From an uncultured Succinivibrio sp. (lineage in GTDB: Bacteria > Pseudomonadota > Gammaproteobacteria > Enterobacterales > Succinivibrionaceae), in the NCBI GenBank assembly GCA_902785325.1, contig CACZXZ010000020.1, positions 1 through 32,836 on the forward strand: 32,836 nucleotides of DNA, written 5' to 3'. Shown in pieces: positions 2,301 through 32,836 of the stretch. Under the pieces are notes generated by a model that saw only the letters and a list, made by a program, of their open reading frames with translations, had not been told where the DNA came from and searched no databases. Position numbers and translations under genes: made by a program. Position 1 is the first letter of the stretch, and each line of letters starts with the position of its first letter.

Positions 2301-2335
2301 ATCATTAGGAGCTAAACGCTCCTAATGATTTATTT
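2301..2335 (+). terminator. rho-independent terminator after the chemoreceptor gene
   Basis: A perfect 12-bp stem (2301-2312 with 2318-2329) and a 5-base loop are followed by a T-rich run on the plus strand. The stem abuts the recD stop codon at 2330, so convergent transcription may also be affected. The minus-strand side lacks a T-tract. Confidence 0.7.
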
Positions 2336-4573: not shown

Positions 4574-4581
4574 GTTGATAC

Positions 4582-7500
4582 CTACTCTTCTGCCTCAAAC
4601 AACTTATCTAAACGCTCTACTAACTCAAATTTAGGCTTAATTTGATAGATACCTGTACTTATACTGTCTGTGCCTTTTTGTAAACCACGCAAGAATAAGT
4701 ACATCACACCACCAAAATCTTTCTCATAATCATAGTCTTTGACAATGGTCTTTAAGAAACGATGCAAAGCTACAGAGTAAATTAAAATCTGTACATCATA
4801 ACGGGAGGTAAAAATAGATTTGAACATCTGTGATGGGCTGTAATCTTTAAAACCTCCACCTAGGAAATTTGATTTGTAGTCAATTAAGAAATACTGATTT
4901 CCAATGTTAGTTTCAAAATTAGCCACCAAATCTATACTACCTTTCATAAAGCCTTTAAAGTCATTAGCTTTTAACATAGGTAAATCAGCTTGAATGGCAT
5001 CACCAAATTTCTCAACTTCGCTTTGATAGAACTCGTCACAAATTAAGTTAAACTCATCCATCTTAAACTGTTTACAAGGCATAAAGTATTCAAGCTCGCA
5101 GGCACACTTATCAGAGGTTAAACAAGATAAAGACAATGGATGAGAGTTACTGTCTACAATACCTAAATTAGCGTGTACGATTGAGGATAACCAATCAGTA
5201 AAATCTGCATTGAAAGTACTTATATCTTGATCATATGGTTTGAGTAAACTGCCATATTTCTTATTTTGAGTGGTTTCTTCAACAAACTTTAGTAAACAAC
5301 CATCATCATTTTTATCAAAATTAGTACGAGACAATAAGTATTCCATCAACTCATGCAAAAAATCACCTGCGATATTGCCTTTAGTAAAGGTAAATTGCAG
5401 TGGATTCTTTGATGAGGAATCATCTACTTGTACTTTAGGATCACTACTTAAATTCTCACCATTCTGCTCTGTGAACATGTGATTGTGATTGCCACTAGTA
5501 ATAGTAGAGTAAGAGGAGATTGTGTAGGATTTATCAATATCGCCTGCATTTAAAGTATTAACACTTAAGCTTGAAGTTTCTTTATTATTTAAAGCTTTTT
5601 CTTTTGCTAAATAGTCTTTATATTCTTTCTTACAAGCTTCTACAGAGCTATCTTCTAAAAGTTCATCTGCCTTTAAATGCTCTTTATATAAAGGCTTGAA
5701 CAAATCTAGATTGGATACAGCCTTTAGAGTACCATCTTCAGCTTTTGGATTGATGATTCTATTAAAGACTTTATAGTTACTACCTGTAAGGTTATTAAGA
5801 TAAATAAAATTAGCAGCTTGAGCTCTAGTTAGAGCCACATACAATAATCTAACTTCTTCTTGAAGACTTGCTTGCTTAGCAATCTCCTTGGCATCTTTTG
5901 TTTTTTCTTTTGCATTGAAGTCTGAGGTCAAAGACATGTTTGTAACAGTGTTTGTCTTTTCATCCATTTGAAGATAAAAAGTTTCGTTATTTGGAACTAT
6001 AGTTAAATGAGCTGAATTTACATCATAAATCTTAAAGTTTGAGCTTTGAGAGCCTCCAGGTTCTTTTCCATAAGGTAAATAGAAGTATGGTAAAAAAACG
6101 ATAGGATACTGCAGACCTTTTGACATATGCACAGTATAGATTTTGATAAGCTCTTGCTCTGATTCTAGATGTTTTTTAGTTTCATCTTCACTAAAACAAG
6201 CATTTTTACTATCACTTTCAAGTGCTACAGATTTAAACCAAATCAACTGAGCTTGAGGACCTATTACCTTTGCATCAATACTTTGAATTAACTCTGCTAT
6301 TTGATAATAGTTTGATAAAGCGCGCTCTCCACCTTCTGTATCAAGCATTGATTTGATACCGTCATGACTTTGTAAGTAGTGAGTAAAAGCACTTATGAAT
6401 CCATGTTTTTCCCACTTTAAATAGCAATCGTGTAACAGACGAATCTCTTTATCAAAGTTGTCATCCTCAGTATTAAGAACAATCTCCTTACTGTTGTCTC
6501 TTAATAAAGAACATGTAAGTAATCTATTTACTAGGGAAACATTAGAGTTATTACACATAGCTTCCATAAAATAGATAATATTTACAGATTCACAAGATGG
6601 CTTATATTCACTTGAACGGTAGGAGGTTTGAACATCACCACCAATCACTGATGATCTGTCAGAAAAGTACACTGACTTTAATCCAACTTCTTCTAAAGCA
6701 GTCTGAATTTGGGAACTTTCTTGTCCTGACTTTACTAAGATTGCTATATCGCTAGGTTTAATTTTGCGCTTTTTTGTTCTATCAGAGGATTTGTCTAAAA
6801 TTCCATGAGTTAACACTTTTACAACATCACAAGCTAAAGCTCTTGCTATTGCTACTTGATATTGATCTTTGTTGGATTCTGATTTTTCAAACTCAAGAGT
6901 GTTTACATAATTTGAAATTGGACGTTTATAAAAGTCGTCGTCGTTGTATTCATCGTCAAAATAGAATCTACAAGAGCCAGCTAATTTCTTATCTTCCTTT
7001 GGATAATTAACTCTCATAAAATCAATATTTGAAGGAATAAAATCAGCCTCACAATCTAAAGGTCTAGCTTCAAATCCTGGAACATCTTGTTCAAAAATTG
7101 CATTTACACCTTCAATAATATTGCGAGAAGATCTGAAATTAGTATCTAGTGTATAGAGTTTTTCAACTTTAGCTTTTGCTTTGTTGTAAGAGTTGATATC
7201 TGCATTTCTAAAAGCGTAGATTGACTGTTTAGGATCGCCAATTAAATAGCAAACTGCTTTTGATTTCTCCTGCTTTTTATCCTCAAGATACAATTTATTA
7301 AAGATTTCAAATTGAATAGGATCTGTATCCTGGAACTCATCAATCATAGCTACAGGATATTGATTACGAAGAAGCTTTGCTAAGTTGTCGCCTCTTTTTT
7401 TATCAACTGTTAAAACTATAGCTAATTGACGAAGTAACTCATCATTAGAAATTACATTATCGCGAATAAACAGAGAATCTAATTTGTTAATGCAAAGAAT

Positions 7501-8751
7501 GGATAGTACATACCAGATGGTTTTAGAGTTTAAATCTAGTTTGTCTCTTACTTCTTCTAAATTATTTACTAGCTGATAGAGATTTTCTTCAAATTCCTGC
7601 GCTTCTAGAGGTAATTTAAATCTGCTATCTTTTCTAGCTCTTGATATCAAAGATCTATTGTCATTTCCTTTGCTAAGGATTTTTTTTGTTGCTTTTCCAC
7701 TAGCAAATAAAAGCTTTACAAGCTCCTTATTAAAATCCTCTGTTTCTAAATCTTTAAGATCTTCTATATTTGTAAACAGAGCATAAATTTCATCAGTAAA
7801 TCCTGTAACGCTTTCATAAAAAGGAGACTGATTGCTTTCTGTAACGACAGTATGTTTCTTAAAGCATTCGTGTATTTGCCATAATAAATCTGCATTCTCT
7901 CCTTCAAGAAGCTCTTTAATTATCTTTTCATAAGCTTTAATTAAATCGGTAAGCTCTTTTTCTAGAGTGTTATTTGGATGTTGCTTTTTAAGGTTATAAA
8001 TTGCATAACCAAAGTAACCGTCTTTAGGATTAAGATTACGAACACTCTTTAAGAGTTTAATTGTATCTTTAAGGGAAGTAGGATCTTGAGTGCCTAAAAT
8101 TTCTAATAAAGTAGCTCTTTTGTCACCTAATTTATCGGTATAAAAAAGATCTCTCCACACAGCAAACATTGCTTCATCTTGCAATGCATTAGACTCTTGC
8201 TCTTGAATAAGTTGTACATTAAAGGCTTTACCTGATTCAAAAGCATAAACTTGGTTTAAAGCTCTGTTACAAAACGAATGAATGGTACTAATAGGAGCGT
8301 TATCGATATTTCTCTCAGCTCTATTTAGTAACCTTGCATATTTCTTTGCAAGCTCTTGTTGGTTTTCACTATTAAGATAATTTTCTAAAAGCTCTTTTAA
8401 GTTCTCATCACAATCAAGACTTACTAAAGAAGCGCCTTTACCTACAGTTTCAAATAGGATTCTGGTATCGTGAATTTTTTCTAAAATACGTGCTCTTAAA
8501 TCAGAAGCTGCTGCATTAGTAAAAGTAACAATTAAGATATTCTCTATAGAAAGAGGATTTCCTTGATTGATATATAAAGAAGTATTCTGCTCTTTATTTA
8601 ATTGACCTAGTAATAGTCTTATTACAAGATTACTAATGGTGTAAGTTTTACCAGTACCTGCTGAAGCTTCAATTAAGGAGGTACTGTTTAGATCAAAAGT
8701 ATTTACTTTAAGTGGAGTCATTTCTCTTAAGTTATTTTCTTGATTTTGCAT
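4582..8751 (-). CDS. recB: RecBCD enzyme subunit RecB (3'-5' helicase/nuclease)
   Basis: RecB is the helicase-nuclease subunit of exonuclease V. The N-terminus carries the family signature LIEASAGTGKT with Walker A at about residues 29-36; the UvrD-type motif II reads MIDEFQDTDPIQF. Further on are HMSKGLQYPIVFLP and LYVALTRA (motifs V and VI). The C-terminal RecB-family nuclease domain has GDFLHELMEYL (its His corresponds to a catalytic residue), GSIDLV with Asp1274, and DYKSNFLG with Asp1291 and Lys1293, so the nuclease should be active. At 1389 residues it is about 200 longer than E. coli RecB (1180). The start lies 12 bases downstream of the recC stop with a GGGA site. Unlike in E. coli, no ptrA lies between recC and recB. 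Confidence 0.96.
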   Translation of the reverse strand: MQNQENNLREMTPLKVNTFDLNSTSLIEASAGTGKTYTISNLVIRLLLGQLNKEQNTSLYINQGNPLSIENILIVTFTNAAASDLRARILEKIHDTRILFETVGKGASLVSLDCDENLKELLENYLNSENQQELAKKYARLLNRAERNIDNAPISTIHSFCNRALNQVYAFESGKAFNVQLIQEQESNALQDEAMFAVWRDLFYTDKLGDKRATLLEILGTQDPTSLKDTIKLLKSVRNLNPKDGYFGYAIYNLKKQHPNNTLEKELTDLIKAYEKIIKELLEGENADLLWQIHECFKKHTVVTESNQSPFYESVTGFTDEIYALFTNIEDLKDLETEDFNKELVKLLFASGKATKKILSKGNDNRSLISRARKDSRFKLPLEAQEFEENLYQLVNNLEEVRDKLDLNSKTIWYVLSILCINKLDSLFIRDNVISNDELLRQLAIVLTVDKKRGDNLAKLLRNQYPVAMIDEFQDTDPIQFEIFNKLYLEDKKQEKSKAVCYLIGDPKQSIYAFRNADINSYNKAKAKVEKLYTLDTNFRSSRNIIEGVNAIFEQDVPGFEARPLDCEADFIPSNIDFMRVNYPKEDKKLAGSCRFYFDDEYNDDDFYKRPISNYVNTLEFEKSESNKDQYQVAIARALACDVVKVLTHGILDKSSDRTKKRKIKPSDIAILVKSGQESSQIQTALEEVGLKSVYFSDRSSVIGGDVQTSYRSSEYKPSCESVNIIYFMEAMCNNSNVSLVNRLLTCSLLRDNSKEIVLNTEDDNFDKEIRLLHDCYLKWEKHGFISAFTHYLQSHDGIKSMLDTEGGERALSNYYQIAELIQSIDAKVIGPQAQLIWFKSVALESDSKNACFSEDETKKHLESEQELIKIYTVHMSKGLQYPIVFLPYFYLPYGKEPGGSQSSNFKIYDVNSAHLTIVPNNETFYLQMDEKTNTVTNMSLTSDFNAKEKTKDAKEIAKQASLQEEVRLLYVALTRAQAANFIYLNNLTGSNYKVFNRIINPKAEDGTLKAVSNLDLFKPLYKEHLKADELLEDSSVEACKKEYKDYLAKEKALNNKETSSLSVNTLNAGDIDKSYTISSYSTITSGNHNHMFTEQNGENLSSDPKVQVDDSSSKNPLQFTFTKGNIAGDFLHELMEYLLSRTNFDKNDDGCLLKFVEETTQNKKYGSLLKPYDQDISTFNADFTDWLSSIVHANLGIVDSNSHPLSLSCLTSDKCACELEYFMPCKQFKMDEFNLICDEFYQSEVEKFGDAIQADLPMLKANDFKGFMKGSIDLVANFETNIGNQYFLIDYKSNFLGGGFKDYSPSQMFKSIFTSRYDVQILIYSVALHRFLKTIVKDYDYEKDFGGVMYLFLRGLQKGTDSISTGIYQIKPKFELVERLDKLFEAEE

Positions 8752-8763
8752 TTTTCTGTCCCA

Positions 8764-11700
8764 CTATTCCTTAATTGAGGCTTTGATGATTGATACTAGA
8801 TCTGCCTTTATTGATCCTTTAATAATTGGTACAAGTTTTTCTTTAATATATTCAAAGAAGGAAATGATTAAATTCTGCTGATCATTTGATAACTCATCAA
8901 AATGATTAAAGATATCTGAGCCTTCAAATAAAAAGGCTACAGCATTATCTTTTCTAAATAACACAGCCTCGCTGTTGTCATTCCAAAGCTTGACAAGAGC
9001 ATCTTTCACCTCTAGTTCTTGATATGCTTTGGACTTTTTATCATCATTGTATTGAACAGAGAAATAATCTTCGATTAGTTTAGAGCTTACAGGTGTAGGG
9101 ATAGAGCTAAACCTAATGTAAAATTCAATTAAATCATTTAAAAGTAACTTTAGATTAGCTACAGAATACTGTTCTCTATCAAAGACAAATCTTGTACACT
9201 CGCCATCCTTAGTAAAGATGTAATGAGTAATTGGGGTATGAGGCTTTTCAATTGCATAAATTACAGAATTGATTAAAGCTTGCATGTAGCAATTAAATGA
9301 AATCTCGTCTTTTTTATGCCATAAATCCAAGATAATATTGCTGTTTTTCAAAAGAGTGCCACTAAATACTGCACTTACAACTTTAGTCTTATCCTTAGTT
9401 TCTTCTATAGGAATAGGAAAATCTAACTTGAATTCAGTGTCTTGAATATTATTGCCATTCTTTAATGCAGCTTTAGCTTGCTGTACTAAATCTTCAGCTT
9501 GTTTTACAAAGTCGTCTTTTTGATTTTCTTTTAATTGACCAAAAGGAATACAACCTTTTTGATACAACATCTCAAAATAATCACTTGCAACAGTGTAATT
9601 TGATGAGCTTAAATTCTTATCAAGATAATCCTTTAGATAAGAATTCTTATCTTTAAAATCAATCTCAAAAGGCTCTTCATCTTGTAAAGTATTACTATAG
9701 TTTACGTTTAATGAAATATTAAAACGCTCTTTTAAAAATTGTCTTGAACAGCCTCTAAACAGCTGTAAAAGATCGTTATAACCTACTTGATATTGATCTT
9801 TAATTTCTATTTTTGATTCTGCTCTCAAGCCTAAAGGCTTAATTTTCTGAAGTTCACCTTGAAGTTTTCCATCCCAAAAACTACCAACGTTAAAGGACAA
9901 TACAGCATTATCAGCTTGATAGTTTTTAGGATCGTATGAGTTTAATGTTTCCTTATGGAAAATTGCTTCATAAGGTGTTTTGTCGTTTGACTCAAGCTTA
10001 AAATGATCGTTTATATAATCTTTAAGCTCAGTTAATACTACAGATGGATTTAGCTCTGCTTTATTAGTTGGAGATTCACCTAAATAAGATAAATACAAAC
10101 TCTCTTGAGCAGATAATATTGCTTCTAAAAAGATAAATCTGTCATCGATAATTCTTGATCTGTCATTCTTTCTCTTAAAAAGAGGATTGCCCATTAAATT
10201 AAAGCTTGGAGCAGTATCTTTTCTTGGGAAATCAGTATCATTTAAACCTAAGATATAAATATGCTTGAAAGGCACAGCTCTCATCGGCATTAAAGAGCAG
10301 AAATTGATACTTCCACGCAAATATTGATTAGAGTCATGAGTATTGCCAAAAGCATGGATTAGCTTTGCTCTAAATACAGGTAAAGTGATCTTAATTTGAG
10401 AGTCTTGATCTTCACTATCATTTTTCAAATGGCTAACAGCTTCATTCATCTCAACTAAAATCTCTTCTACTAAAGAGCATTCATATTGAGTTTTCGGATC
10501 TTGAACAAAGCAACCATCTAAAATTAAGGTCTTAAGTTTATAAGTCCAAACTGCAGTTTCACTTGAATCTAAATTAGGATCAAACTCTGCTCTTATTTGA
10601 TTTAACTTATCAATAAAAGCATATAACTTGCCTAATAAAGTGTAATCAGAGGAATCAAAGTTCTCAAAACCAAAAGTGTCATGACCAGAGCCTGTCATAA
10701 ATCCATAGAATAATCTATCTAGACCTGCTTCAATGGTCCAAGGAAGATTGATCTCCTCCTGTGTATGTAATTGAGAGCAAACATCCTTTTGATTAAAGCC
10801 CCAGTGAATCTTGGTGTTATTAAACCAACTAATAATCACTGACAATTCTTCAGTGCTTATATTAAATTTTTCTGCAAGTGGCTTTACGGAAAGTAATTCA
10901 ATGATCAAATTAGCGCTAATAGGACTTATACCAATAGACAATAATTTGATGATAGCATCAGCTACTTCATTTGAAGATTGAGTGGATTTATCACTAACTG
11001 TGTATGGTAAATAGCAAGGATCCTCTTTTTCAATAGAGCCAAATACAGAATCAATGTAAGGAGCGTAGGTTTCAATATTTGGAACCATCACCAAAATATC
11101 TTTTGGCAATATTGGCTTATCACTGTTTTTGATGCTATTTAAGATTGAGTCTCTTAAGACCTCTAACTCTCTTTTTATAGTATGACAAGCGTGTACCTGC
11201 AAAGATAGATCATTGCCTTTTATAGTTTGCTTTTCTTCAGTTTGAGAGGTCAAATTAAGTAAACTGTCTTTTACATAATTTAATAGCGTATGTGTTTTCT
11301 CATCGTCATTAACGCTATTGGCAAAACAATGAGTAAAATCAATCTCATTATCTTTAGATAACAATACGTTGAGGGTATCCTTACCCTGAGTTCCCATAGA
11401 AACAAGAAGAGAATTTCCATCTACAAGTTCACCTATATTGTTCTCTTCATTATTGTCTTCATAACAATTTTTGACAGACTCTAAATATGCTTCATCAGTA
11501 GAACGGGGATTAACAACTGTAAAGTTATTTACAGTTGCAGTCTTTTTAACGTCAAAATGCTTAATTAAGGCATTAGCTTTAATAAATTTAATAATTTTTT
11601 TCTTTTCATCAAGCCAATACTTTTTGCTGTTATCTAAGTCACCCCAGTAATCCTGACAAGGATTTAGGTGCATAAAGAACACTGGAATGTCTTTGCCTAA

Positions 11701-12549
11701 ACTTACAAATAAATCTATTACGATGTTTGGAAGAGCTGATACACCAAAAATAAAGAGTTTTTTAGGCAGTTTTGCACGTAAATTAGCAGGAATAGTTCCA
11801 TTAAAGGAATCAAATTTTTTAATTAAATTTGTTACTACTGTAGGTCTGTCATATAAGGACTCTACTGTATTAGCAGGAACTAGGTTATCCCTTAATAACA
11901 CCCATAGCTTAATTTGCCAAAGATTCTCTATTAAAGTAGAAAATTTTCGAGGATTTTTCTTTGATTCACTCTCAATAAACTCTTTAATTTTGCCACTTGG
12001 AAGTTGAATTTCTTGGTTAGAGTCTACGGTAATGCCTTCAAAATCAGCTAATTCGATTTTATCCCAAGCTAAGATCCATTCAGGGCGGTACATTTGATAT
12101 TGATCATATGTATCAGCAATTACGCCTGCTAATTGATAGGCGCGCTCTTTATCAATTTGTCCATCTTCACTTTTAATGTAAGTAGACATTTGCTTAAAGA
12201 CTAAATCATCTTGATTAGACCATTTATCAACTAAAGAATAAATTGACCAGGTAAGATGCTCATGAGAGAAACGGTTATATTTATCAGCATTATTAAAAGC
12301 TTTATGAAGATCCCAAATAAAACCCCAGATTTGCTCAAATTCAACACCAGAGCAAATGCCGTTTAAAGAAGCTATTTTTTGCTGAATATAGGTTTGCATA
12401 CCTTTATTCATAATGATGACTTTATCTAATAATAAAGGAGATACACTTGTATCGTTAAATACCTCACTTTTCATTAGATCTGCACACAAGGTACACAATA
12501 AACTTACATCATTAGAATCAATAACATTCAATACTTTCTCTTGAGCCAT
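8764..12549 (-). CDS. recC: RecBCD enzyme subunit RecC (Chi-scanning)
   Basis: RecC holds the RecBCD complex together and scans the 3' strand for Chi through an inactivated helicase fold. Recognition rests on family landmarks: an N-terminal MNKGMQTYIQQKIA segment, the mid-region INFCSLMPMRAVPFKHIYILGLNDTDFPR-like block (about residues 755-785), and position directly upstream of recB. A frame opens at TTG (12564), but ATG at 12549 is preferred because AGGA lies 7 bases before it; this gives 1261 residues (E. coli RecC has 1122). It is the first gene of the recC-recB-recD operon, 12 bases before recB. The Chi sequence this enzyme uses cannot be deduced. Confidence 0.95.
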   Translation of the reverse strand: MAQEKVLNVIDSNDVSLLCTLCADLMKSEVFNDTSVSPLLLDKVIIMNKGMQTYIQQKIASLNGICSGVEFEQIWGFIWDLHKAFNNADKYNRFSHEHLTWSIYSLVDKWSNQDDLVFKQMSTYIKSEDGQIDKERAYQLAGVIADTYDQYQMYRPEWILAWDKIELADFEGITVDSNQEIQLPSGKIKEFIESESKKNPRKFSTLIENLWQIKLWVLLRDNLVPANTVESLYDRPTVVTNLIKKFDSFNGTIPANLRAKLPKKLFIFGVSALPNIVIDLFVSLGKDIPVFFMHLNPCQDYWGDLDNSKKYWLDEKKKIIKFIKANALIKHFDVKKTATVNNFTVVNPRSTDEAYLESVKNCYEDNNEENNIGELVDGNSLLVSMGTQGKDTLNVLLSKDNEIDFTHCFANSVNDDEKTHTLLNYVKDSLLNLTSQTEEKQTIKGNDLSLQVHACHTIKRELEVLRDSILNSIKNSDKPILPKDILVMVPNIETYAPYIDSVFGSIEKEDPCYLPYTVSDKSTQSSNEVADAIIKLLSIGISPISANLIIELLSVKPLAEKFNISTEELSVIISWFNNTKIHWGFNQKDVCSQLHTQEEINLPWTIEAGLDRLFYGFMTGSGHDTFGFENFDSSDYTLLGKLYAFIDKLNQIRAEFDPNLDSSETAVWTYKLKTLILDGCFVQDPKTQYECSLVEEILVEMNEAVSHLKNDSEDQDSQIKITLPVFRAKLIHAFGNTHDSNQYLRGSINFCSLMPMRAVPFKHIYILGLNDTDFPRKDTAPSFNLMGNPLFKRKNDRSRIIDDRFIFLEAILSAQESLYLSYLGESPTNKAELNPSVVLTELKDYINDHFKLESNDKTPYEAIFHKETLNSYDPKNYQADNAVLSFNVGSFWDGKLQGELQKIKPLGLRAESKIEIKDQYQVGYNDLLQLFRGCSRQFLKERFNISLNVNYSNTLQDEEPFEIDFKDKNSYLKDYLDKNLSSSNYTVASDYFEMLYQKGCIPFGQLKENQKDDFVKQAEDLVQQAKAALKNGNNIQDTEFKLDFPIPIEETKDKTKVVSAVFSGTLLKNSNIILDLWHKKDEISFNCYMQALINSVIYAIEKPHTPITHYIFTKDGECTRFVFDREQYSVANLKLLLNDLIEFYIRFSSIPTPVSSKLIEDYFSVQYNDDKKSKAYQELEVKDALVKLWNDNSEAVLFRKDNAVAFLFEGSDIFNHFDELSNDQQNLIISFFEYIKEKLVPIIKGSIKADLVSIIKASIKE

Positions 12550-12800
12550 AGCAATTTCCTGCAACTAAACTATGTAGTTAGTATAGTATATTTAATATAT
12601 TATTTCTATATAAATAGGTTTTAATGCAGATATATTAAATACATCTATTCAGCAAATACTAGTTTAATAACTTATAAACTAAATTACGTTTACGTAAATT
12701 TTTTGAAAATTAGGAAGTTAAGCTAATATTAAAGGATAATTAAAAGAAATTACCTATCAGAGATCTTAGATTTAGAAGAAAGTTTGGTGAGAAGATTTTG
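12550..12800 (-). promoter_or_regulatory. AT-rich recC upstream region
   Basis: This is about 250 bases without a gene between the lpp terminator and recC. On the minus strand a TATACT -10 candidate lies near 12579-12590, close to the recC start, but the matching -35 is poor. A small palindrome with TTACG and CGTAA arms lies near 12685-12698. Nothing else is recognisable. The recCBD promoter must lie here because the upstream lpp unit ends in a strong terminator. Confidence 0.4.
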
Positions 12801-15912: not shown

Positions 15913-16590
15913 ATGAGCACAACAAATTCTGCAATGCGTTCTATCAACACCATCATGATGTGGTTATTCTGCTTAACAGTTTTAATGTTAATCATGCCTT
16001 GGGAGCAAGTTTCTACAGAATTTGCAAGTAAGATTGATGCAAACCGTATTTATTTATACTTTGCTTTAATTATCGAAGTTTCAAACATCCTAGCTCAAGG
16101 TTGTTTAACTCTAGTTCAGGCTTATTCAAAGAAGTCTTACAACAAGAGATTAGAAGAATTAGTACAAACTACCGTAAATCATTTTGATTTTGCTGAAAAA
16201 GCATTATTAAGAGAATTTGTATTACAGAGAAAGTCAGTATTAAATCTACCTGTAACTGAGCCTACTGTACGTAATTTAATTGACGGTGGTGTACTAAAGA
16301 TTGTTCACATTACCGATGCTGAAAACAAAATTGCACAAGTTATCATTTCAAAGGTTGCACGTCCTTACATTACCTACAAAGCAATTGGTCTTACCTTAGG
16401 TAAAATGACTGAAGAACAAATCTCAGCTATCATGACTGCCCGTCCTGTATATGCTAAGAATAAAATCAAACCACAAAACAAAGTGGTTGTAGGTTCAAAG
16501 ACTATCAACTCTTTATTTAAGTCTCCTGTTGAGGATGAGACTGAAGAGGTTTTAGATACTGCTAAAGATAATCACAATGTAGCAGCATAA
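15913..16590 (+). CDS. two-TM membrane protein, SieB-like (superinfection exclusion B family)
   Basis: This 225-residue protein has two hydrophobic segments (about residues 13-31 and 45-67) and a cytoplasmic domain of about 110 residues. The segment AEKALLREFVLQRK, then LPVTEPTVRNLIDGGVL, resembles the conserved region of chromosomal 'superinfection exclusion B family' proteins (EEKA-LREF, then LxxxxxVxxLxxxGIL). That is recognition from memory and moderately sure. The acidic C-terminal tail looks disordered. The family name comes from phage SieB; the role of chromosomal members is unclear and I do not assign one. It is a single-gene unit with a sigma-54-type promoter, TAGGAG ribosome site and terminator, head-to-head with glnB. 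Confidence 0.6.
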   Translation: MSTTNSAMRSINTIMMWLFCLTVLMLIMPWEQVSTEFASKIDANRIYLYFALIIEVSNILAQGCLTLVQAYSKKSYNKRLEELVQTTVNHFDFAEKALLREFVLQRKSVLNLPVTEPTVRNLIDGGVLKIVHITDAENKIAQVIISKVARPYITYKAIGLTLGKMTEEQISAIMTARPVYAKNKIKPQNKVVVGSKTINSLFKSPVEDETEEVLDTAKDNHNVAA

Positions 16591-26256: not shown

Positions 26257-27144
26257 ATGGCTCACATTAACTACCACGAATCTATAAATCACGGTACTTT
26301 AGATTTACCTTACGCGATTTATCACACCAAAATACCAGACTTTTTCAAAGTTTATCCCCTACATTGGCATGACGAGTTTGAAATAATCTATGTGCAGGAT
26401 GGTAGCTCCTGTTTTGTGGTAGATAACTTAAAAATTACTGCTTTTAAAGGAGATCTGATTGTAATTCCGCCTCAAGTACCTCATAGCATTGAACAACACC
26501 TTGATAATAAAGCAGACTTTTTTAACTTTTTATTTAGGGCTGATGCTATTGTGGATAAAAGCACTTGTAGTTACCTTTATGAAAAGTACATTGAGCCTTT
26601 TGTGTCAGGTTTTAAGCAAATTACTTACTACCAAAAGCAATATTCTCCATTAAATAAAGAAGCAACGCCTCTGCTACAAGAGCTAATCGACAAAAGGCAC
26701 GATGTTTACTCAAAAGATGAACTTTTAGTAATTTCAACTATTTTCAAATTACTTCAACTTATCAACAAATACGCTAAAACTACGCATACACCTTCTAATA
26801 TTGATAAATCCTTAGGTTTTATCAAAGATGCTGTTTTTAAAGTGCAACAAATGTACCCGCAAGACTTGTCAATTGAATATATGGCTCAAAGTTTGAATGT
26901 CTCCAAAAGCCATTTCATGAAAACCTTTAAGAAAACTATGGGAGTAAGTTTCACTCAATACTTGATTGACTATCGTTTAAAAATTGCCGCAAGACAGCTT
27001 AAAGAGGGAAAATTAAAGATATTTGAAATTAGTAATAATTGCGGATTTAATAACGGATCATATTTCATCAGATCCTTTAAAGAAAAATACAAAACTAGTC
27101 CCAAAAATTATCAAAAGATGTTTAAAATAGAGAAAAGAAAATAA
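26257..27144 (+). CDS. AraC-family transcriptional regulator
   Basis: This 295-residue regulator has an N-terminal cupin-type sensing domain (about residues 15-105, with HWHDEFEIIYVQDG and GDLIVIPPQVPHSI) and a C-terminal pair of helix-turn-helix motifs (about 195-292). The first HTH is LSIEYMAQSLNVSKSHFMKTFK; the second ends with the family signature ISNNCGFNNGSYFIRSFKE and SPKNYQ. The architecture is that of sugar-responsive activators such as MsmR/RhaS-type regulators. Its divergent position suggests control of the adjacent GH13 gene in response to maltodextrin; the effector is inferred. An AT-stem hairpin follows the gene. Confidence 0.92.
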   Translation: MAHINYHESINHGTLDLPYAIYHTKIPDFFKVYPLHWHDEFEIIYVQDGSSCFVVDNLKITAFKGDLIVIPPQVPHSIEQHLDNKADFFNFLFRADAIVDKSTCSYLYEKYIEPFVSGFKQITYYQKQYSPLNKEATPLLQELIDKRHDVYSKDELLVISTIFKLLQLINKYAKTTHTPSNIDKSLGFIKDAVFKVQQMYPQDLSIEYMAQSLNVSKSHFMKTFKKTMGVSFTQYLIDYRLKIAARQLKEGKLKIFEISNNCGFNNGSYFIRSFKEKYKTSPKNYQKMFKIEKRK

Positions 27145-27252: not shown

Positions 27253-30200
27253 ATGACCTCACTGGCTCAAACAATAGCAAAAAGTATGACTCAACATGAC
27301 TGTCCAAAAGAAAATAGAGCAGAAAAATCTGAAATTCTGTTAAAAATTGGATTACTAGAAGTTATCTTTAAGCTTACAGAGCCACTGAATATAGATAACT
27401 TATTATTTAAAAAAATTGTTTATAAAAATGGACGAAAAATAACCAGTAGGTTATCTATGATAAATTGCATTTATGCAAATCCTACTGATTTATGGACCTG
27501 TGTCTGTCCTTTCGTTATGAATGCCACCTCGGCAATCTTTCATACTGACAAATTAAAAAGCAAAATTATTCAAGATGGTATCGTAGGCAATGTGATTGAA
27601 AGATTTTACAATCTTGCAAAACAAGAATACCCAGACGATCCTAAAATGCATTTGTTAGCCATTGCAATGGCGGTTATTCTTCCATCCCATGATGATTTCT
27701 TTGCAAATCTTAGCTGTAATAGAATAAGTCTTTATGTCAAAGAGTTAAATGCTCCTGACACCACAGAACTTGGTGAAATTACTGAAGAATTTTGTGATAG
27801 CTTATTACACCCTAAGACTTTAACTGAAGAAGAGAAAGATGATCTTGATACCTTGGTTCAAGTACTAAATCTTCCTGAAACACCAATCAGTATTTTTAAC
27901 ATTTTTAATCCTGTTAAAAAGAACCAAAACCATCAAAATAATTTAGAAGAAAAAACACTCCATACTCCATCCGGTGAGATTTCTGTAAAGGTAACAAAAG
28001 TAGAAACTCCAAAAGTTAAAGTTGATGTTAAAGCTGAACAAAAAGAATTAAATGCTCTAATTAAACAGTTGTCAGAATCTAAACGCGTAACTTTAATTGA
28101 CGGCAAGTTAGATAAAACAGTTGTAGAAGAAGATACCTCTTTAAATGACAATGAAATCAAATATGTAACTGGTATTTTAAATATCGTTGAAATCAACAGA
28201 AGTAAGTTCTACAACTTCTACCCTTTACTAAGTTGGAATGGCAACGAGTACTACGTGGTTGCTAATGAAAGAAAAGAGCTCTACTCTGCTGACGGTTTTA
28301 TCAAACTTGAATACAACGATATAGGATCTTCTGCTCAAAAATTCTTACAGAATTTAGGTAATCACTCTTTAGTAAATTTAGCTTACTACAGCAGTGAAAT
28401 TGTGCCTGATAGCCATCGTGAAGTTGGTAACATGATTGTAGTTTCAGATGCTGTAAAAGAAAAACGTATCTGTGCTGCCGCAAAAGATCCTAACCTTGCA
28501 CACCGCTTATATTGTGTGGTTACCCCAAAAGATACAGATGAGGAATTTGATTTTTATAAATCAAATCTTGTGATCTTCAACGATGACGATCCAAAAAATT
28601 TGCCTACTTATTTCAACCAAGACACAGTAGTTTTAAGATTAGGCAAAAACTATTATGGTCCTTTTAAAGTTAAAAAGAATAGCTTTGGTGATTTCTCATT
28701 AACAGCTTGCTCTTCAACTAATAGTGAATCATTCTCAGCTAAGTTAGATGTTATTCAAAAGCTCACCCCTCTTTCACTTGAACAAAGTACTTTCAATCCA
28801 AGTAAACTTATCCTACATCCTCAGTTTACTGATTTAGATATTATCCTAGCTGGTGAGCACTACATTAAATATCAAATTGAAGATGTAATTCCTGATGAGA
28901 AATTATTAGATATTTACGTTGAAGAAAAGCATCTTAACTTAAGTGATGTTGAAGAAACAGAAAAAGGCTCTAATGAAATCCTAGAAGCCTTAGATATGAG
29001 TTCTTCTCTTTACTGCGAAGGTTTTGATGATTTTACTCAAGGCAGATTCACAAGAATTAAGCAATTAGTATCTAAGATTGAGTATAGCCACAAGAACTTA
29101 GAGCGCTACTATGAGATCTTTAAATACTGCGCAAGTTCAGATGAGAAATTCATAAGCCAAGTATGTGGCGTAATTGAGCAAGATAAAAAACTAAAAGAGG
29201 ATTTTGCAAAGAACCTTCATTTAGAAGAGATTTCCTCCCAAAAGAAAAACGAAGTTAAAAAGCTAGAAGCAAAACTAAAAGAATTAAAAGAAGGCATTAA
29301 GGATTTAGATAATGAAACTCATGAAGTAGACAATCTTCTAAATGAGAAAAAAGAGTTACTTGTAGCCTTTAACAACATTAGTTTAGCTCAAGCAGAACTT
29401 ACAAGACTTGAAAATGAACAAAAGGAATTAGAAGCTAAGATCACCAAAGCAAAGGAAGACTATGAATCCTTTGATAATGGCATTGGCAAATATGAAGAGC
29501 GCTTAAAGAACACTACTTCAATAGTGGCAAGTCTAGCTTTTGACAATGAGATCACTTCAAAGATCATGAGAGCTGCTAACGGTGCTAACGCTAAGATAGA
29601 AATTGATAATGACAACAGACGTTTAGAAATTATCAAGAGCATAAATCCTATCAATAAAAAAGATAATGATTTAATTCATTACCTTTGCTCAAAGCTTAGT
29701 GAAATCCGTCGTTACGAGAACTCAAATATTGAATACATCAACTTACTTGCTTGTATCACCCAAGGATTTTTAACTGTTTTATCAGGTGCTCCTGGCTCTG
29801 GAAAAACTAGTATTTGTAATATTCTAGGTAAAGCTCTAGGTCTTTGTGACATTGATAAAACCTGCATTCGCGACAATTGGAAGGGTGATAAAGAATTCTT
29901 TAATCGCTACTTACAAGTGTCTGTTGAAAGAGGTTGGAACTCTAAACGTGACTTTATTGGTTACCACAATCCTTTAACAGGAACCTTTGAAAGTCCTGAT
30001 CCTAAACGCTATGAGTGCTTCAAGCTCTTAGAAGCAGAGTACCAAAATGGCATGGATAAACTTCCTTATCTTGTACTATTTGATGAGGCTAACCTATCCC
30101 CTATGGAATATTACTTTGCAGACTTCATGAATATTTGTGACAGAAGAGATGCAAATAGTACAATTTCCTTAAGTGGTACCCAAAGATATCATATCCCTGA

Positions 30201-30753
30201 TACCTTAAGATTCTTAGCAACTATCAATAATGATCACACTACCGATAGATTATCTCCTCGTCTTTTAGATAGAGCTTTTGTGATTACACTACCTAACAAT
30301 GGTGTTCAAAATAAAGATATTGAGGACTTCACTTTTGAACCTATCAATTGGAATGCGCTAAAAGAAGCCTTTACTCCACGTGGTAGCATGACTCAAAAGT
30401 GCAAGGATATCTATGCAAAAGTTGAAGATATCTTAATGAAGCTCAATTTACAGTTATCTTATAGATGTAAGAATGCGGTTGATAAATATGTAGTTGCAAC
30501 TTCAAGATATTTATCTGATCCAAAACTTGAAACAAAACTCACTGGTAATGAAGCTTCTGTAACAGCCTTAGATTACGCTATTGCCCAAAGAGTACTACCA
30601 CAAATTGATGTTTTAGGTGAAAGCTATTTAGATGCTTTAGAAGAGTTATATGAGCTATTTGATCTTAATAATATGAACAAATGTGCCAATATTATTAAGC
30701 GCATTATCAACTCTGGAAGTGAAATGGCGGACTATAGATTCTTTAAGTTTTAA
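27253..30753 (+). CDS. McrB-like AAA+ ATPase with coiled coil and unassigned sensor region
   Basis: This is a 1166-residue protein. Residues 1-220 look helical and match nothing I recognise. A charged linker spans about 220-300. A beta-rich region follows at about 300-600, with two aromatic-rich stretches (FYNFYPLLSWNGNEYYVV and KNYYGPFKVKKN). A long coiled coil lies at about 655-752, and the AAA+ domain at about 830-1080. Motor motifs are Walker A GAPGSGKT (845-852), an McrB-type RDFIGYHNPLTGTFE segment, Walker B LVLFDEAN (Asp944, Glu945), sensor 1 TINND (990-994) and SPRLLDR with arginine-finger candidates Arg1003 and Arg1007. The tail is helical. The next gene is a McrC-like nuclease, so this is the likely motor and target-recognition subunit of a type IV restriction-like system. 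Function is inferred. It has no signal peptide or TM segment. Confidence 0.75.
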   Translation: MTSLAQTIAKSMTQHDCPKENRAEKSEILLKIGLLEVIFKLTEPLNIDNLLFKKIVYKNGRKITSRLSMINCIYANPTDLWTCVCPFVMNATSAIFHTDKLKSKIIQDGIVGNVIERFYNLAKQEYPDDPKMHLLAIAMAVILPSHDDFFANLSCNRISLYVKELNAPDTTELGEITEEFCDSLLHPKTLTEEEKDDLDTLVQVLNLPETPISIFNIFNPVKKNQNHQNNLEEKTLHTPSGEISVKVTKVETPKVKVDVKAEQKELNALIKQLSESKRVTLIDGKLDKTVVEEDTSLNDNEIKYVTGILNIVEINRSKFYNFYPLLSWNGNEYYVVANERKELYSADGFIKLEYNDIGSSAQKFLQNLGNHSLVNLAYYSSEIVPDSHREVGNMIVVSDAVKEKRICAAAKDPNLAHRLYCVVTPKDTDEEFDFYKSNLVIFNDDDPKNLPTYFNQDTVVLRLGKNYYGPFKVKKNSFGDFSLTACSSTNSESFSAKLDVIQKLTPLSLEQSTFNPSKLILHPQFTDLDIILAGEHYIKYQIEDVIPDEKLLDIYVEEKHLNLSDVEETEKGSNEILEALDMSSSLYCEGFDDFTQGRFTRIKQLVSKIEYSHKNLERYYEIFKYCASSDEKFISQVCGVIEQDKKLKEDFAKNLHLEEISSQKKNEVKKLEAKLKELKEGIKDLDNETHEVDNLLNEKKELLVAFNNISLAQAELTRLENEQKELEAKITKAKEDYESFDNGIGKYEERLKNTTSIVASLAFDNEITSKIMRAANGANAKIEIDNDNRRLEIIKSINPINKKDNDLIHYLCSKLSEIRRYENSNIEYINLLACITQGFLTVLSGAPGSGKTSICNILGKALGLCDIDKTCIRDNWKGDKEFFNRYLQVSVERGWNSKRDFIGYHNPLTGTFESPDPKRYECFKLLEAEYQNGMDKLPYLVLFDEANLSPMEYYFADFMNICDRRDANSTISLSGTQRYHIPDTLRFLATINNDHTTDRLSPRLLDRAFVITLPNNGVQNKDIEDFTFEPINWNALKEAFTPRGSMTQKCKDIYAKVEDILMKLNLQLSYRCKNAVDKYVVATSRYLSDPKLETKLTGNEASVTALDYAIAQRVLPQIDVLGESYLDALEELYELFDLNNMNKCANIIKRIINSGSEMADYRFFKF

Positions 30754-30761
30754 GGTTCAAA

Positions 30762-32618
30762 GTGATTAAATCTATACAGCTTATTCAAAATCAGAATAAT
30801 GCACTTTTAGAACAAGTATGTTGCACTTGGACTTTAAGTGATAATAACGATTTTGATTTAAATGTAGCTATCAGTCCTTCTTCCTATGAGCACTATATTT
30901 TAAAGATCTGCTCTGAAGATAGTTTTGTCTCTGATACCGAGCAAGATCTTTTTAAAGGTAAAAGATCATATCAATTAAGCAAGGACGAATTTGCTCTTAC
31001 GATAAATCAAGAGCCAATACAAACCATAGCTTATATTCCTCATGACGATACTAAGTGTTTGAATATAGTTATCGATGGTCAGTATTTTGATCATTGCTTA
31101 CTATATGTAGAATTTTCCTTAAAATTGGCATTTGCAGGTCAAGTAAGAACTCTACCTAATTTTGGTTTTGAATATGACAGCATTACTAAAGAAATGGAAG
31201 ATATGATTGAGTATGTTCAATCCTACGCTTCAAAATACTTCTTTAGCCAAGAAATTGATGAGAATAAAACTAAAGTATTACATAAGCAGAAAACAGAGCA
31301 TCTTGAATTTAACTCCCTGCTAAAAACTCTAGGTAAGATTGCGACTGTTTATGAACAGGAATTAGGCTTTTTCAAAACCAATGCATACTTTAAACTAAAA
31401 CAAGAAGGCATCGTTGATAACTTCTATAGAATAAAGTCTTTTAGTCCTGAAACGCTACACTACATAGCAAATCATCCAGATGAGTTAACTCCTTTTGATG
31501 ATGAGACAGGCATTAAGTTTAGAGGCAGAAATTACATTCCTAAGCATACTTTAATGATTACCAATGTAAGAGATCTGTCTATCTATGAAAACAGAGCGTT
31601 AGTAAGCTTTTTACATAAGATCATCAATGATATCAAAGCTATTAGCCTTGCAATTCAAGCAAATTACCACAATTACTCTAATCAATTTGCTTCCTACATT
31701 AAATCCTATGAAGGAATACTTAATTTCAATGCGATAACTGATGAGGAAAAGAAAAAGCTCAGTGATTTGCGTACACGCCTTGTAAGGCTATACTCTCAAT
31801 ACCGCACCTTGCTTCCAGTAGAAGAAATTGGAGTTAAAAAGCTCCCAAGACCAACCCCTGTGTTCTTGTCAGTACCTGCTTACAGACTAATCTACACTCA
31901 AATGAAACAGTGGTACTCACTAGATATCACAACTATTGAAAGCAATGACTTTATTATCAATGCAATTTATAAGAGTAGATTGTACGAATACTATTGCTTA
32001 CTAAAGATAGTCAAAGCCTTCGAAAGTAATGGTTTTACTTTTACTGGTAACCAAAAGAGTGAGGATGACTATACTAGTTTATATAGTACCTTTGAACCTG
32101 AGTTTAACGAGATCTTTAATCTAGACTCAGAATCCTATGCTGCTAAAGTAATCTATCAACCAGTTATATACTCCCAAAGAGAAGGAAACACAGGACTATA
32201 CAGAAGCACCTCTTTGATAGTAAACAATATTACTTCTCCTATATGGGGAAGCGAGAGCTATGAGCATTTTTACACACCAGATTTTGCAATTGTAGTAACC
32301 AACAAACAAACGCAAATTAAATCTGTATTACTTATAGATGCAAAGCATAAAGATCTTGAGTCGGTTAAGCTTCAAGATATTATTCCTTGTACTGTAAAGT
32401 ATCAATTGTCAGTAAAGCCTATTAAAGAAACCACTAAATATATAGGACTTGAAATCTTATGCGGAAAAGGTAAACAAGCTGATACTTTCTCTCCTTTTGA
32501 CAATATCCATAATCCAAGAAGTGAAGAGGTAATCGAGAACTCTTTTGTGAAGGTATTAACCTTGAATGAGAATTCACAGAATTGTAACTATCAATTACAA
32601 GAGGAATTGTTTAAGTAG
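30762..32618 (+). CDS. DUF2357 / PD-(D/E)XK nuclease protein, McrC-like partner
   Basis: This 618-residue protein starts at GTG, with AAGG overlapping the stop of the previous gene and only 8 bases between the two. The N-terminal and middle part resembles the DUF2357 region found with McrC-type nucleases (RGRNYIPKHTLMITNVRDLSIYENRALVSFL area, about 250-285). A helix with YEYYCLLKIVKAFESNGF (about 406-423) resembles the start of the PD-(D/E)XK_7 fold. The nuclease core is Pro506-Asp507 in YTPDFAI and Asp526-Ala-Lys528 in LLIDAKHK, so the catalytic residues appear intact. It is probably the effector nuclease docking on the AAA+ ring made by the upstream protein. The target (modified DNA, phage DNA or RNA) is unknown. 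Confidence 0.75.
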   Translation: MIKSIQLIQNQNNALLEQVCCTWTLSDNNDFDLNVAISPSSYEHYILKICSEDSFVSDTEQDLFKGKRSYQLSKDEFALTINQEPIQTIAYIPHDDTKCLNIVIDGQYFDHCLLYVEFSLKLAFAGQVRTLPNFGFEYDSITKEMEDMIEYVQSYASKYFFSQEIDENKTKVLHKQKTEHLEFNSLLKTLGKIATVYEQELGFFKTNAYFKLKQEGIVDNFYRIKSFSPETLHYIANHPDELTPFDDETGIKFRGRNYIPKHTLMITNVRDLSIYENRALVSFLHKIINDIKAISLAIQANYHNYSNQFASYIKSYEGILNFNAITDEEKKKLSDLRTRLVRLYSQYRTLLPVEEIGVKKLPRPTPVFLSVPAYRLIYTQMKQWYSLDITTIESNDFIINAIYKSRLYEYYCLLKIVKAFESNGFTFTGNQKSEDDYTSLYSTFEPEFNEIFNLDSESYAAKVIYQPVIYSQREGNTGLYRSTSLIVNNITSPIWGSESYEHFYTPDFAIVVTNKQTQIKSVLLIDAKHKDLESVKLQDIIPCTVKYQLSVKPIKETTKYIGLEILCGKGKQADTFSPFDNIHNPRSEEVIENSFVKVLTLNENSQNCNYQLQEELFK

Positions 32619-32722: not shown

Positions 32723-32836
32723 TTATTCAATGATAGTACCAACAACACCAGCACCTACGGTACGACCACCTTCACGAATAGCGAAGCGCTCGCCTTCTGC
32801 CATTGCTACTGGGTGGATTAAGGTTACTGTCATGTC
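32723..32836 (-). CDS. tuf: elongation factor Tu, C-terminal end (partial)
   Basis: The minus strand encodes the last 37 residues of EF-Tu, with VTLIHPVAM and the strongly conserved [16 protein letters not shown] ending IIE before a TAA stop at 32723-32725. This is the end of domain III, which contacts tRNA and EF-Ts. The gene continues past the right edge. A terminator follows 18 bases after the stop. Confidence 0.97.

Follow-up and report, generated by a model that had tools for sequence, protein, structure and literature searches.

In E. coli K-12 McrBC, an AAA+ subunit and a McrC-type subunit are encoded in one operon, and the sensor motif of McrB has the form NxxD (NTAD). Replacement of NxxD by NxD marks a branch of McrB proteins that includes the CoCoNuTs (Bell et al. 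2024, PMC11090510). According to the parts of that description on which we draw, and to which all statements on CoCoNuTs below are limited, Type I CnuB carries an OB-fold resembling a cold-shock domain (CSD) in its N-terminal part, and Type I CnuC has an Ig-like beta-sandwich at its N-terminus. Type I-C consists of two genes and features an OB-like domain as well as a coiled coil, and its CnuB often, but not always, has a YTH-like domain between the CSD and the coiled coil. In CoCoNuTs, either the McrC nuclease is active or the operon encodes a different nuclease (PMC11090510). As of the same account no NxD McrB GTPase had been characterized, which lends interest to further examples. Here we describe a two-gene cassette at positions 27253..32618 of contig CACZXZ010000020.1 (assembly GCA_902785325.1) from an uncultured Succinivibrio sp.; the window is the whole stretch of 32,836 nt that was analysed. 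We read its two open reading frames, ORF1 and ORF2, as a CoCoNuT-type (NxD McrBC) restriction system gained by horizontal transfer, with a CnuB/McrB-type and a CnuC/McrC-type subunit, and assign this reading a probability of about 0.72. It is built on what was observed: the anatomy of the two sequences, their conserved motifs, the pairing of the genes, the position in the tree and the insertion of the cassette.

An NxD motor gene paired with a McrC-type gene

ORF1 and ORF2 are encoded on the same strand, and 8 nt separate the ORF1 stop from the GTG start of ORF2. The features of the pair are as follows.

27253..30753, + strand: ORF1, CnuB/McrB-type AAA+ protein, 1166 aa
27253..27867, + strand: ORF1 residues 1-205, predicted helical N-terminal domain (low-confidence model), fast-changing
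27868..28152, + strand: ORF1 residues 206-300, linker, mostly disordered in the structure model, with a short helix at about 259-275
28153..28422, + strand: ORF1 residues 301-390, beta-rich, weakly OB-fold (SSB-like); first half of the conserved module
28423..28887, + strand: ORF1 residues 391-545, a second domain rich in beta structure, with a conserved GP(F) motif (G469 invariant, P470 almost so)
28888..29217, + strand: ORF1 residues 546-655, helical segment preceding the coiled coil, R598 invariant, L551 nearly invariant
29218..29604, + strand: ORF1 residues about 656-784, coiled coil
29689..30747, + strand: ORF1 residues 813-1165, NxD McrB-type AAA+ domain, including Arg1003 and Arg1007
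30762..32618, + strand: ORF2, CnuC/McrC-type protein, 618 aa, GTG start
31182..31976, + strand: ORF2 residues about 141-405, DUF2357-like region, assigned by family, borders approximate
31977..32402, + strand: ORF2 residues 406-547, PD-(D/E)XK nuclease with Glu409, Asp507, Asp526, Lys528 and Tyr547

Relatives were collected by a search of genome contigs, and counts out of 80 or 79 refer to the best 80 of 225 loci; one of these (L075) has no ORF1 gene call, hence 79 readable ORF1 relatives. L132 and L133, whose contigs are as long as those of L051 and L054, were treated as duplicates of these and left out of the counts. No Pfam family scored above its cut-off in ORF1. Its Walker A motif (GAPGSGKT, 845-852) and its Walker B motif (DEAN, 944-947) are followed by the sensor-1 stretch ATINNDHTTDRLSPRLLDRA, which has the N-x-D form (NND) at 992-994; the McrB-type AAA+ domain, the position of Walker A and the NND sensor agree with the sequence-only reading. 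Moreover, NxD was found in the AAA+ domains of all 79 relatives (78 by script and L103 by eye).

The two genes also travel together. In 74 of the 80 loci, an ORF2 relative starts between -200 and +700 nt from the end of the ORF1 relative. Three of the six unpaired loci lie where contigs end, one is the locus with no ORF1 gene call, and L080 and L094 have no detected partner. Spacing was -19 to 42 nt in 66 of the 74 pairs; four partners, which start 313-512 nt off, are possibly broken genes. In the partner family, Glu409 is identical in all 75 aligned rows, window included, and Pro506, Asp507, Asp526, Lys528 and Tyr547 are identical in all 72 rows that cover them, again with the window (three rows are gapped); Lys546 is less strict (68 of 72). 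These include the intact Asp507 and Asp526/Lys528 reported earlier from the letters. The PD-(D/E)XK half of the earlier DUF2357/PD-(D/E)XK assignment is found in ORF2 itself, with PDDEXK_7 at 22.1 bits, exactly the curated cut-off. The DUF2357 half is seen through the family and was not detected in ORF2 alone: among the 55 aligned members given (of 75 rows), DUF2357 was found in 38 and PDDEXK_7 in 26.

Phylogenetic placement of the AAA+ domain

A careful tree was computed from 57 AAA+ sequences, after RavA and a further two AAA outgroups had been dropped for their very long branches. On one side stand E. coli McrB (NTAD) and a second McrB-like protein from the same genome as the cassette (NDVD), both of the NxxD form. 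The other side holds 55 sequences (support 100/100), of which 54 read NxD and one, L038, has lost it. ORF1 was placed inside a clade of 43 sequences with support of 100/99. Outside this clade fall L045, which has a UPF1-like helicase gene and a context like that of Type II; L040 and L043, with helicase and DUF2357 proteins and a context like that of Type III; and a Priestia plasmid system with a separate 498-aa protein in front, in a context like that of Type I-B. The CoCoNuT subtypes are represented in the tree by these context-chosen sequences, not by published references, and L044, L047 and L048 were grouped with the Type I-B-, II- and III-like sequences by tree position, not by gene content. 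Several terminal branches are long, and the deepest splits of the tree are uncertain.

Two sequences in this tree deserve mention in their own right. The second McrB-like AAA+ protein of the genome (L003, contig C50) is 788 aa long and groups with E. coli McrB at 100/100. The related ATPase at L038 (7942-10434, - strand) has lost both NxD and the Walker B residues (FDNAD, ATVSQS) and lies beside a 934-aa McrC-type partner (5111-7915, - strand); its motor is possibly inactivated.

The coiled coil and the conserved module of ORF1

In ORF1, heptad contrast was z 3.8 for residues 645-700, dipped at 673-728 and stood at 3.6-6.2 for the windows within 687-784, which supports the coiled coil first proposed from the sequence; matches to coiled-coil families were weak and under the cut-offs of those families. 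The N-terminal half of about 600 residues, earlier described as unassignable, resolved into at least two parts, a module at about 301-545 that is found across the clade and has a weak OB-fold likeness, and residues 1-205, with one distant relative. Within the module, the earlier description still holds for the second beta domain, which has no assignment.

A hidden Markov model built from residues 301-495 found the module in 60 of the 79 relatives (E < 1e-10, module start covered). In 17 of the 79 it starts within the first 9 residues, so that these proteins (16 of them 844-885 aa long) have no front extension, and we therefore regard the module as the basic front of the clade. Sister sequences of the tree share it at the profile level only: a single profile-profile comparison with the N-termini of nine of them gave 91% probability (E 9e-7) at 7% identity. 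When the module profile was run against 19 proteins (two-gene ATPases, Type I-B proteins and partners), L031 was the sole match besides ORF1 (4.7e-7), and the Priestia I-B CnuB showed no detectable relation to the module.

The structure model of residues 296-562 had a mean predicted local distance difference test score (pLDDT) of 82 and a predicted TM-score of 0.82. Foldseek comparison with the PDB gave a best E of 0.009, with none of 532 rows at E <= 0.001 and low TM-scores; the best rows were dominated by baculovirus LEF-3, bacterial single-stranded DNA-binding proteins (SSBs), lysyl- and aspartyl-tRNA synthetases, and RPA. Against BFVD, LEF-3 and phage SSBs came up, with a best E of 8e-4 and 1 of 542 rows at E <= 0.001. 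OB-folds are present in the proteins that dominate these lists. Because the rows are weak, we call the module (residues 301-545) OB-like rather than a proven OB-fold; such a module suggests contact with RNA or single-stranded DNA. The module matched no YTH/EVE or cold-shock Pfam family, and none of the 50 Foldseek rows shown named a YTH/EVE protein. What the CoCoNuT authors describe as YTH-like could be the second beta domain (391-545). A model of the whole 660-aa N-terminal part of ORF1 had a mean pLDDT of 66, and a fold search with it was uninformative (0 of 235 at E <= 0.001).

Comparison with described systems

The pair is like CoCoNuTs in general in its NxD motif, its coiled coil, its adjacent McrC homologue and its intact nuclease residues, from which activity is predicted. 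The coiled-coil McrBC likeness noted from the sequence is strengthened by the gene pairing, the patchy distribution and the tree grouping. Type I-C (CnuB plus CnuC) comes nearest: it shares the two genes, the coil fused to an NxD GTPase, the McrC-type partner, the lack of a helical insert and a beta-rich, possibly OB-type module ahead of the coil. The likeness is by description only. Unlike in Type I-C, a YTH-like domain was not detected in ORF1, and an extra variable domain (1-205) is present that the consulted description does not contain. Our best reading is that of a CoCoNuT-type, type IV-like restriction pair that is nearest to Type I-C by its features, with a putative variable sensor at its front and no subtype assigned. 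We class it as a variant because of its extra fast-changing front domain, which goes unmentioned in the parts of the CoCoNuT description we used.

The other subtypes were considered and rejected. A helical insert between Walker B and NxD, a Type I-A trait, was not visible in ORF1 or its relatives when these were inspected with no I-A reference beside them; the Walker B and sensor matches lie 38 residues apart in ORF1, and Walker B start and NxD lie 51-55 residues apart in the relatives that were measured (78 of the 79). Type I-B was rejected, as the coil sits in ORF1, there is no separate CnuA and the neighbours are araC and tuf. Types II and III were rejected, as neither a superfamily 1 (SF1) helicase CnuH nor an effector CnuE lies beside the pair, which has araC upstream and tuf downstream.

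It is possible, though rather doubtful, that the pair stands outside the published types altogether, as a separate two-gene branch of CoCoNuT-like NxD McrBC systems in which ORF1 would contact nucleic acid by its OB-like module in place of CSD plus YTH. The 43-sequence clade does stand apart from the systems that are Type I-B-, II- and III-like by context, no helical insert was seen between its Walker B and NxD motifs, and YTH/EVE was missing from the Pfam matches and from the Foldseek rows shown. However, published Type I-C likewise has two genes, an OB-like domain and a coiled coil, and could be this very clade, and the second beta domain could be its YTH-like domain.

E. coli K-12 McrBC shares with the pair the AAA+ and McrC-type subunits, the single operon and the gene order. 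It differs in the NxxD motif, which occupies the same columns as the NxD of ORF1; ORF1 also has a long coiled coil and a much larger N-terminus, and the DUF3578/ADAM domain of canonical McrBC had no Pfam match in it. ORF1 further matches PDC-M26A of the PADLOC candidate system PDC-M26 (E 5e-21, best stretch 649-973), as do 5 of 5 related ATPases; a text search found no paper on PDC-M26. The plasmid relatives L136, L169 and L135 belong to the same 43-sequence clade, and at L136 and L169 the next gene is of the McrC type (E about 1e-43 with the McrC-type profile). Unlike ORF1, their ATPases are only 839-855 aa long, and they are about 26-33% identical to it over the matched part. As judged by titles and the openings of abstracts, text searches for later work on CoCoNuTs turned up the CoCoNuT paper, its preprint and a preprint on a YprA helicase; work elsewhere is possible.

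The variable front of ORF1

Residues 1-205 of ORF1 were modelled as helical, with pLDDT mostly 40-70. Residues 1-300 had no match in the other 368 of the 369 class genomes searched, in plasmids or in Pfam. When residues 1-640 were used as a query against 56 family genomes, nothing was found within 1-250 outside the genome itself; residues 1-660 had no match among PDB sequences, and PHROGs gave nothing convincing (best 0.011 for the front). Front extensions differ strongly from one relative to another. They (46 sequences, 43 after removal of duplicates) were clustered by blastp, which gave one cluster of 26, two pairs and 13 singletons. ORF1 is one of the singletons, its residues 1-299 matching no other extension. 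The 12 names printed for the large cluster were Ruminococcus, other clostridia and one record labelled Alistipes. At L088 (5773-10773) and L118 (6469-10443), the extensions before the module measure 779 and 529 aa and hold no Pfam family above cut-off.

Local alignment with shuffling against 42 extensions related ORF1 28-186 to L051 18-177 (z 8.0, 0 of 300 shuffles), the next best being z 2.2, and L051, the nearest relative of ORF1, is the sole one detected for residues 1-205. Single-sequence hhalign of the two fronts gave 1.9% probability and E 0.025. Identity between ORF1 and L051 is 59% for the AAA+ domain and falls to 34% for the OB-like domain, 24% for the second beta domain and 21% for the front. 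Because forced alignment of unrelated fronts gives 19-28% identity, the kinship of these two fronts is argued from the shuffle test. Among the 28 pairs of eight other fronts, the Sutterella fronts L055 and L072 gave z 6.2, and L052 and L055 gave z 3.4 (0 of 100 shuffles each). Pure module swapping at the front was rejected, as the shuffle links point to kin fronts; at least part of the front variation would thus be fast divergence. A front that evolves much faster than the motor would fit a role in recognition.

A wider proposal is tentative, and we hold it at somewhat below even odds. The relatives may make up a two-gene NxD McrBC branch of their own that is common in gut bacteria. In it, the OB-like module, the coiled coil, the NxD motor and the intact nuclease would be the constant chassis for an N-terminal sensor that changes fast and is specific to the lineage. 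Recognition would then shift by replacement or rapid divergence of the front, as with the specificity subunits of other restriction systems.

Insertion site, distribution and neighbouring genes

The cassette lies between the following two genes.

26257..27144, + strand: araC-type regulator, left neighbour of the insertion
32723..32836, - strand: 3' end of the tuf (EF-Tu) gene, right neighbour; the contig stops within the gene

The contig ends inside tuf, 218 nt after ORF2, presumably at an assembly break because tuf is a repeated gene. As noted from the letters, no methyltransferase gene adjoins the pair, and the araC-type, amylase and tuf genes around it are ordinary. The insertion site was compared in 6 contigs from 5 of the 19 genomes searched. 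The order amylase-araC-tuf is the same in four genomes of the genus (G145, G181, G319 and G320), with araC 35-54% identical. There, araC and tuf are 53, 414, 83 and 95 nt apart, respectively (three of the four tuf ends were read from alignment ends), and here they are about 5.6 kb apart. The short gaps indicate that the cassette is an insertion of about 5.6 kb. In G320 a relative lies elsewhere (L164), and the araC-tuf site itself is empty. The contigs of G242 and G319 with a more distant amylase-araC pair showed neither tuf nor cassette in the fetched stretch. The four contigs of the genus also have tuf by araC near or at contig ends.

Distribution is patchy. Any match at all, not always of the two-gene kind, was found in 21 of 295 genomes of the order, the present one included, and the genes are thus not universally conserved core genes. 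Relatives occur in Succinivibrionaceae, Sutterellaceae, several Bacillota families, Spirochaetota and others. Within the 43-sequence clade they are also found on plasmids of Klebsiella pneumoniae (L136), Acinetobacter baumannii (L169) and Vibrio rarus (L135, the ATPase). Of the distant plasmid relatives, one adjoins restriction-modification genes and one adjoins integrase genes. A plasmid search with ORF2 gave no match at 1e-5, one scan of viral contigs with a single-protein query found no relative, and phage records gave 1 weak partial match. On the A. baumannii plasmid (5492-13683 of L169), the pair stands beside genes for a restriction endonuclease, a cytosine methyltransferase and a very short patch repair endonuclease.

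Neighbours were surveyed by taking two per side, of at least 110 and under 1500 aa; a random draw of 150, from which the longest were dropped, left 140 of 235 eligible neighbours. Among these 140, YceG was found 8 times, trypsin 7 times and rhomboid 7 times. In Ruminococcus-type loci such as L101 (1946-11311), the pair lies, all on one strand, between a trypsin-like/PDZ protease gene and two others, a 196-aa gene (probably the rhomboid of this tally) and a YceG-domain gene. This recurring arrangement may reflect shared ancestry of the site.

An unlikely alternative is that the pair serves in stress response or nucleic-acid quality control as an AAA+/nuclease pair and not in phage defence. A stress role was proposed for Pseudo-Type I-B (PMC11090510); in our survey, many of the listed neighbour families look like housekeeping ones, and the Ruminococcus-type relatives keep their arrangement with protease and YceG genes. 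Against such a role speak the patchy distribution, the insertion between genes that follow each other closely in other genomes of the genus, the relatives on plasmids and the fast-changing front. From family, patchiness, insertion and plasmid carriage, we infer that the CoCoNuT-type pair acts in phage defence.

Points against a CoCoNuT-type restriction pair

Several results weigh against this assignment. The best PDB sequence match of the AAA+ profile was midasin (E 3.6e-5), over the P-loop stretch only, and McrB, the sole long match among the 60 PDB rows shown, was weak (E 0.029). The McrC-type profile did not list McrC in a search of PDB sequences, and in a test with 15 sequences it scored E. 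coli McrC no better than E 0.12, a further difference from K-12 McrBC; the same profile scored the plasmid-borne partners as given above. The OB-fold matches of the module are weak, and its Pfam search returned neither YTH/EVE nor cold-shock families. Of 135 neighbour Pfam families, 25 were listed, and the majority of these have a housekeeping character, PADLOC matches among the relatives' neighbours are scattered and come as a count without a baseline, and, unlike in PDC-M26, ORF2 and 5 related partners had no PADLOC match.

That ORF1 is instead a MoxR-type AAA+ chaperone beside an unrelated nuclease is very improbable: its sensor-1 and arginine stretch is superficially MoxR-like, AAA_5 finds 16 places in the genome (ORF1 not among them) and midasin heads the PDB matches, but the NxD motif in 79 of 79 relatives, the pairing with DUF2357/PD-(D/E)XK-type proteins and the grouping with NxD McrB-like proteins all disfavour it. 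No grouping of ORF1 with MoxR-type proteins was found in a direct comparison that is thin, a quick tree in which RavA and a further two AAA proteins had very long branches, with three more proteins of the genome not alignable at the P-loop.

Proposed mode of action

By analogy with McrBC (PMC11090510), ORF1 would form a ring of AAA+ subunits by way of its NxD GTPase domain, and ORF2 would dock on this ring, at the NxD region, through its DUF2357-type region. The docked ORF2 would stimulate nucleotide hydrolysis, and its PD-(D/E)XK domain would cut nucleic acid. The OB-like module and the coiled coil may be the parts of ORF1 that make contact with partners or nucleic acid, and its variable helical N-terminus may help to set what is recognized. 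The target would be RNA, single-stranded DNA or modified DNA. The 43-sequence clade is compact, with two genes, intact nuclease residues and, here, no helicase or effector partner. The relatives that begin with the module (17 of 79) and those with additional front domains form a natural set for questions of what the module binds, what the front does and whether RNA or DNA is the target.

Other genes in the window

About 11 kb upstream of the cassette, at 15913-16590 (+ strand), a gene resembling the superinfection-exclusion gene SieB (PF14163, E 1.3e-21) stands in ordinary surroundings, with weak PHROG matches. Further upstream, at 2330-12564 (- strand), there are three consecutive large genes for proteins of 747, 1389 and 1266 aa, the first of them an SF1 helicase with RecD-like domains; by size and order, these are perhaps a recBCD operon.

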